Assembly: GCF_000826065.2 (NCBI RefSeq)
Contig: NZ_LN623542.1
Span: forward strand, 342,715 to 406,714
Direction of reading: 5' to 3'
DNA from: Tessaracoccus massiliensis
Lineage (GTDB): Bacteria; Actinomycetota; Actinomycetes; Propionibacteriales; Propionibacteriaceae
Length of the DNA: 64,000 bases
The notes beneath the pieces were generated by a model, which saw only the letters and a program-made list of their open reading frames with translations, was not told the origin of the DNA and searched no databases. Position 1 is the stretch's first letter. The number at the start of each line of letters is the position of its first letter. Of the stretch, positions 36,209-38,092 are shown one piece after another. A program made the position numbers and the translations under genes.

Positions 36209-37152
36209 TCAGGGGCCGTATACGCGGGGGACGCGGGCGGCGATCAGGCAGGTCACCTCGTAGGTGATGGTGCCCATCAGGTCTGCCAGTTCCTCCACGC
36301 CGATGCGTTCCTGCCCGCTGGTGCCCATCAGCACCACCTCGTCGCCCACCTGCACAGACGGCTCGTCCGGGCCCAGGTCCAGCATGGTCTGATCCATGCA
36401 GACCCGCCCGGCGATGGGGTACGAGCGGCCGCCGATCAGCATCCGGCCGCGCGACGACAGCAGGCGCGAGTAGCCGTCTCCGTAGCCGACGGCGACCGTG
36501 GCGACCCACGTGTCCCGCGGCGCCGTCCAGGTGCGGCCGTAGCCCACCGTCTCCCCCGCGGCGACCCGCTTGACGAAGCTGACCCGCGACGTCCACGTGC
36601 CCACGTCGCGCAGCGGGCGTGACGGCGGGGTCTTCGCGTCGGGGTAGGAGCCGTAGATCATGATGCCGGGACGCACCATGGTGCTGCGCCCGAGGCTGTG
36701 GCCGAGGACTGCGCCGGAGTTGGCCGCATGCACCCACTCCACCGGGCCGACGGCGTTCTCGATCTCAGCGACCACGCCGTCGAAGCGCTCCAGTTGGGCG
36801 CTGGTGAAATCGGCGCCGTCAGCGACATCGCTGACCGGCAGGTGCGTGAAGATGCCGCCCAGCCGCAGGCTGCCCGCCTCTTGCCTCTTATACACACCTT
36901 CCGAGCCCCCGAGACCGTACTAGGCGTCACGCCGCCGGCCCGCAATTGCTCGGCCTCGGAGGTGAGCGCGATCCCCAGCCACTCTGCCGAGCCGCGCTCC
37001 TGGATGCTCTTCGCGACGGTGACCAGCCCGTGCCCGTAGGCGTTCGCCTTGACGGCGGCGAGCACTGCCCGGCCACCCGCGAGGTCGCGTGCGGTGCCCA
37101 GGTTTGCGTGGATCGCGTCGAGGTCGACGCGGAACGTGGTGGGAGAGGCCAT
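36209..37152 (-). pseudogene. alr: alanine racemase split by embedded adapter sequence
   Basis: Makes D-alanine for peptidoglycan with PLP. The N-terminal 76 residues (36924-37152) start MASPTTFRVDLDAIHANL and include AAVKANAYGHG with the PLP Lys34, ending RAGGVT. The C-terminal 223 residues (36209-36880) start EAGSLRLGG and include HAANSGAVL, VRPGIMIYG, VGYGRTW with the expected Tyr region, and GRVCMDQTML. Between them are 43 bases of library adapter, and about 70 residues of the normal barrel are missing; the halves are in different frames. The real chromosome very probably has an intact alr, so this is an assembly fault rather than a true pseudogene. Confidence 0.93.
36881..36923. other. 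embedded Nextera transposase adapter plus i7 index (assembly artefact)
   Basis: CTCTTATACACA at 36885-36896 is the core of the Nextera/Tn5 mosaic end; CCGAGCCC then CGAGAC at 36901-36915 match the read-2 adapter with one substitution and one extra T nearby; CGTACTAG at 36916-36923 equals, from memory, the N702 index. Translated on the minus strand the mosaic end gives MYKRQ, a familiar contamination peptide. Confidence 0.93.
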
Positions 37153-37243
37153 GGCCCAACTATTGCGCACGTAGCTGACACGTCGCGCTCGGCCCGTGGT
37201 GATGTCCACGCGTCTGAGCCGCGGGCGTGGCAGACTTCACTAC

Positions 37244-38092
37244 ATGTCTAACAACCAGTGGAACACCGGCCAGAACCCCGAGTGGGCTCCCCAGCAGCCG
37301 GAAGGCGCAGCCCCGGAGCAGCAGGGCCAGCAGCAGCAGGAATGGGGCCAGCAGACGGACTGGACCCAGCAGGGTCAGACCTCCGCCACCGAGTGGGGCC
37401 AGCCCCAGCCGCAGACCAGCGCACAGGACTGGCAGGGCGCACAGGCTCAGCCCCAGCCGAGCGCTGGCGACTGGCAGCAGGCCCAGCCCCAGCAGAGTGC
37501 GCAGGACTGGCAGGCCGCCCAGTCCCAGGGTTCCGCAGACTGGAACCAGGCGCAGCCGCAGCCCAGCGCGCAGGATTGGGGCCAGGCGCAGCAGGCCCAG
37601 TCGTGGGACCAGGGTCAGCAGGGCCAGCAGCAGTGGGGCCAGCAGGGCCAGCAGGGCCAGTCCTGGGATCAGAACCAGCAGTGGAACCAGCAGCAGGGCG
37701 GTTACGCGAACACCACCGGCGGCTACTCCGGCGCCCCGCAGCAGTGGAACCAGCAGGCTGAGAAGAAGCCCAGCCCGTTCGACTTCTCCTTCAAGCGTCA
37801 GGCGCTCCCCGGCGCGGCGGGCACGATCTTCCTGATCGGCACCATCGGCTTGGCCGTGTGGTGGCTGTTCCACTTCATCGGTGTCTTCTCGTTCACCGCG
37901 GGCCTCAGCGGCGGCGTGCCCATCCCGATGCTGCTCGAGCGCCTCCTCGGCGGCGCCGCACTCGCCGTGTTCGGCATCATGCTGCTGCGCGCCATCCTCG
38001 AGGTTGGCGTCGCCGTGACCGGCCTGCTGAACAAGCCGGACCCGGCCTCCGCCAAGGACGACGACAAGCCGGCGGAGGACACCGCCGTCTGA
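37244..38092 (+). CDS. Gln/Trp-rich DUF4282-type membrane protein
   Basis: 282 residues. The first 175 are almost wholly Gln, Trp, Ala, Ser, Gly and Pro with about five imperfect units of the form QPQPSAQDWxxAQ (about 52-118), then GQQGQQ-type runs. Residues 178-282 form a small membrane domain with helices near 193-215 and 234-257 and a charged tail (KDDDKPAEDTAV), consistent with DUF4282. ATG at 37244 is chosen; the frame upstream has no support. It is divergent from alr across 91 bases. The N-terminal part is probably disordered and cytoplasmic. Function unknown. Confidence 0.78.
   Translation: MSNNQWNTGQNPEWAPQQPEGAAPEQQGQQQQEWGQQTDWTQQGQTSATEWGQPQPQTSAQDWQGAQAQPQPSAGDWQQAQPQQSAQDWQAAQSQGSADWNQAQPQPSAQDWGQAQQAQSWDQGQQGQQQWGQQGQQGQSWDQNQQWNQQQGGYANTTGGYSGAPQQWNQQAEKKPSPFDFSFKRQALPGAAGTIFLIGTIGLAVWWLFHFIGVFSFTAGLSGGVPIPMLLERLLGGAALAVFGIMLLRAILEVGVAVTGLLNKPDPASAKDDDKPAEDTAV

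Follow-up and report, generated by a model that had tools for sequence, protein, structure and literature searches.

The alanine racemase gene (alr) in this 64,000-nucleotide window of the Tessaracoccus massiliensis genome is interrupted by 43 bases of Illumina Nextera sequencing adapter and index (positions 36881-36923, + strand). We consider it almost certain (probability about 0.98) that the tail of a read, rich in errors and bearing adapter, was incorporated at a contig join or gap closure, making the interruption a data error and not biology. The original prediction of an assembly join is supported by the adapter, the index, the missing gene segment, the change of frame, and two more adapter traces in the same genome.

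The inserted string reads as mosaic end, read-2 adapter, and eight-base index, in the order first proposed from the sequence alone, and is oriented as in a read running out of its insert. The mosaic end lies in read-through orientation at 36881-36899 (+), with three mismatches to the 19-base reference. Alignment placed an extra T and then the Nextera read-2 adapter core, with one substitution, at 36900-36915 (+), and the known i7 index CGTACTAG follows directly (36916-36923, +). The name N702 for this index is given in passages of PMC5570097 and PMC10926370, and the Nextera adapter string in a passage of PMC6460022. Overall, the copy carries 3-4 substitutions and one extra base, in agreement with the several substitutions and single extra base noted earlier; its left boundary is uncertain by 1-2 bases.

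This arrangement is not expected by chance. The mosaic end has a single match in the window at up to three mismatches and none in 100 dinucleotide shuffles. Positions 36901-36923 match the read-2 adapter plus N702 index with one mismatch, while none of 100 shuffles contained this string at up to two mismatches. The index alone is not significant, being present in 20 of 100 shuffles. Local alignment to the adapter reference scored 62 at this site. Six single-base shuffles of the window gave 24-28, and the window outside the site gave 24 (+) and 26 (-). On the minus strand, the adapter encodes the peptide MYKRQ (36881-36895), which opens the ORF 36209-36895 from a mechanically called GTG start. 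MYKRQ had been described as the usual trace of this fault. This follows from translation of the adapter; the single paper found to contain the string is unrelated. P7 sequence normally comes after the index. Here no P7 tail follows it, and native sequence begins at 36924.

Both flanks of the adapter were assigned to alr by profile, with Pfam and PDB relatives giving the same identity. The C-terminal piece (36209-36880, -) matches TIGR00492 positions 151-367 and includes Pfam Ala_racemase_C and the end of Ala_racemase_N. The N-terminal piece (36924-37152, -) matches positions 3-74, with a probable ATG start at 37152-37150. The locus lacks profile positions 75-150. The codon ends of the two halves lie 44 bases apart (43 adapter bases and one native base), and the halves are in different frames, as had been predicted. 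An adapter can connect contigs that are otherwise unrelated in an assembly graph, and two distant loci might in this way have been falsely fused through shared adapter sequence. Such a fusion is very improbable here, as alr sequence lies on both sides of the adapter, correctly ordered and on the correct strand. That they form one gene in the right order instead indicates a join or gap closure made at the right place with the wrong content.

Related alr loci were used to size the missing segment. Both parts were present in 96 of the 100 loci examined, and all 96 had native sequence between them, spanning 207-261 bases with a median of 222 (some of the 96 represent one contig in two collections, e.g. 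L023/L037, L028/L035, and L030/L049). The other four loci (L032, L070, L095, and L109) held the C-terminal part only. The distance between parts was a multiple of three in 95 of the 96 loci and was 222 bases (74 codons) in all 16 of the best-scoring loci, giving a precise value for the "about 70 residues" originally thought to be missing. By this spacing, approximately 221 native alr bases were replaced by 43 adapter bases, with a change of frame. Among named genomes, the closest alr relatives (best 80 of 305) are from Propionibacteriaceae, Tessaracoccus and Arachnia ranking near the top.

Alternatively, the strain could truly be without this part of alr, the adapter merely marking the ends of reads. 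The 17 contigs of the assembly yielded no further copy of the segment in an alr context, which fits true loss, but an unfilled gap would equally leave the segment absent. Moreover, alr is normally required for D-alanine, and a profile search of the 17 contigs found no full-length alr elsewhere in the genome. The one other alr match is weak (38.5 bits, profile positions 5-140) and falls in a different ORF on contig C14, of a kind also present in relatives. A single continuous alr match was recovered from 37 of 40 relatives (beginning at position 28 in one, G016), and in the other three (G008, G014, and G015) the gene is broken or cut. In G015 it is split across two contigs at approximately profile positions 102-161, overlapping the region missing here. 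Taken together, these results leave true loss with a negligible probability.

We also examined whether the missing stretch is unusual in itself, using 12 relatives that we selected. Its mean fold energy was below that of the rest of alr in 10 of the 12, the strongest 80-base fold window fell within it in five, and its highest 100-base G+C content exceeded that of the rest of alr in six, by 0.01-0.05. The stretch is thus weakly unusual, and this comparison of 12 selected relatives gave weak support to a strong hairpin or G+C peak, an idea we did not retain. Also in the window, the + strand ORF at 37196-38092 encodes a product whose N-terminal half is long, repetitive, and rich in glutamine, and whose C-terminal part matches DUF4282 below threshold.

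The 19-base mosaic end derives from the ends of Tn5, and its match at 36881-36899 could in principle reflect the end of a natural Tn5-type transposon, or a Tn5 insertion made in the laboratory, in alr of the living strain. However, it is followed by synthetic read-2 adapter and index, and it is the single mosaic end in the window at up to three mismatches, with no two inverted ends around a cargo. There is no 9-base target duplication at the boundaries (GCCCGCCTC versus GCGTCACGC), native alr sequence is lost and not duplicated, and Pfam found no transposase in five other nearby ORFs. We regard a transposon or Tn5 insertion as scarcely credible.

A sequencing artefact is further supported by the rest of the assembly (17 contigs, 3.21 Mb), in which the alr site lies on C16, a contig of 736 kb. 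Two more traces lie in this assembly, on C17 and C13. At up to three mismatches, the mosaic end has two copies genome-wide, at the alr site and at C17:512572-512590 (L003 1173-1191). The C17 copy is a partial adapter (mosaic end and read-2) that aligned over 30 bases, the last part weakly. It falls at the beginning of a 311-aa ORF; relatives of this ORF occur in 23 of 24 other genomes of the genus. A short G+C-rich hairpin comes just after the adapter. As the N-terminus of this gene is variable, the length missing there could not be estimated. The third copy (C13:160292-160342; L314 793-843) comprises mosaic end, read-2 adapter, CGTACTAG, and 11 bases of P7, with an alignment score of 80. It has errors of its own, in one gapped, substitution-rich stretch, and was located via the adapter core. 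Its mosaic end is too damaged for the search at up to three mismatches, which recovered two of the genome's three copies; copies of this kind can thus pass a screen. The C13 copy sits inside a long open frame whose translation, on reading the sequence, resembles a putative SppA-type protease.

Matches to the read-2 and read-1 cores in this genome were judged against reversed controls. The read-2 core gave three one-mismatch matches (the alr site on C16, the C13 adapter, and one on C14 with no surrounding adapter), compared with two for the reversed control. The read-1 core gave 16 one-mismatch matches, none exact, against 11 for its reversed control, and these were taken as chance. Two three-mismatch matches to the read-1 tail both lacked surrounding adapter, and no P7 tail was found in the genome at up to three mismatches. 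A single indexed library would leave just this pattern, one index shared by two copies in an assembly. Because the genome contains two more adapter traces, one of them with the same index, a technical origin of the alr interruption is nearly certain. The base accuracy of the contig, also called into question originally, is doubtful at the join itself.

Our data suggest how the join could have arisen. Short inserts in an Illumina Nextera library carrying the i7 index N702 would have let some reads run through into the read-2 adapter, and error-rich copies of that adapter may have escaped trimming. Exact copies are easily trimmed, so the survivors inside contigs would tend to carry errors. At a place in alr that was probably thinly covered, a tail that left the C-terminal half in the + strand direction may have stayed on a contig end or served in gap closing. 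The assembler would then have abutted the next contig right after the index, with the loss of about 221 native bases and the gain of 43 adapter bases. Against this course stand the absence of a P7 tail after the index, which bears on the joining step on the right side, and the weakly unusual character of the missing stretch, which bears on the cause of a coverage gap. The adapter errors themselves look like general miscalls. Pre-phasing, in which the wrong base is the next base, was considered and set aside; it fits this site but is not specific, as across the 27 sites aligned the substituted base equalled the next base in 40 of 93 cases and the previous base in 45 of 96, both proportions somewhat above the expected third.

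Read literally, the assembly would imply that no functional alanine racemase is encoded, and databases would take up false protein starts (MYKRQ...). Completeness and contamination of the genome are scored at 99.99% and 0.13%; the fault is present despite these scores, which therefore did not reveal it. The alr site itself is mainly of use as a caution on error-rich adapter copies.

Retained sequencing adapter in assemblies is a fault of known kind. PMC11536531 describes adapter contamination of genomes in microbial databases, with a concentration at contig ends. Those cases and ours have in common that read-through adapter was kept in the assembly, harming its accuracy and contiguity. They differ in that the passages on this subject concern Illumina universal adapters concentrated at contig ends, and the paper's text does not contain the word "Nextera", whereas here an error-bearing Nextera adapter lies inside a 736-kb contig. 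Our literature search was narrow and does not establish that error-rich internal copies are undescribed.

Viral sequences provided many comparators. The exact 34-base adapter was found in at least 120 IMG/VR loci. Among the IMG/VR matches listed, 121 of 123 exact copies are oriented outward and lie no more than 100 bases from a contig end; L205 (4,687 bases) and L260 (149 bases) are the exceptions. N702 is the commonest index among the IMG/VR copies listed (26 copies). P7 sequence is visible in 54 of the 123 comparator copies listed; the tail is too short to show it in 66, and three have another tail. The tail is usual in such artefacts but, judging by these listed copies, not essential to them.

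The 43 bases of the alr site matched nine phage records, with no match in E. coli genomes and plasmids; the adapter and index of this site recur in phages of unrelated hosts. Six of the phage records were fetched. Four contain the mosaic end in exact form and then read-2 adapter and CGTACTAG, and two have error-rich copies, with CGTACTAG (L279) or without it (L281). Two complete-genome deposits with embedded adapter and CGTACTAG, MH000603.1 (33834-33874; L276) and MK327937.1 (110019-110059; L277), carry the same adapter and index as the alr site, also inside the record. Their copies are free of errors as far as the index and run wholly or partly into P7, while the alr-site copy has errors and ends at the index.

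Among 396 Actinomycetota genomes, 22 (this one included) contain the mosaic end at up to two mismatches, and one locus was viewed from each of 19 of the other 21. Nine of these loci continue as read-1 or read-2 adapter (L127 for only about five bases), in seven the contig ends at the mosaic end, two (L143 and L145) show no adapter continuation, and one resembles a mate-pair junction. This last locus (L141, G236:C2:127-145) has back-to-back mosaic ends, as in a Nextera mate-pair junction, and 38 matches to the mosaic end, allowing two mismatches, were counted in its genome. Within the genus, the mosaic end at up to three mismatches occurs in three of 39 genomes: this one, G002 (two clear adapters), and G014, where the match has no clear continuation as adapter. 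Like the alr site, the G002 copies are mutated Nextera adapters inside a multi-megabase contig. Unlike it, they have a different index, comprise one read-1 and one read-2 adapter, and have longer tails.

There is a better-than-even case that error-rich adapters in long, seemingly finished contigs form a recurrent class, missed by exact and near-exact screens and silently breaking essential genes of reference genomes. In four genomes chosen for holding error-rich matches (G182, G403, G002, and G377), all 25 sites fetched aligned to the read-1 or read-2 Nextera adapter. These comprised 10 of 10 sites in G182:C1 (L285-L294), three of three in G403:C1 (L295-L297), and two of two in G002:C1 (L298-L299), the 15 being internal to contigs of 3.4-3.9 Mb. 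From G377, 10 of 12 matches were fetched; all 10 were adapters, each within nine bases of a contig end. The adapter continuation is weak at two of these sites (L289 and L292) and runs to just 4-5 bases at three others (L303, L306, and L309).
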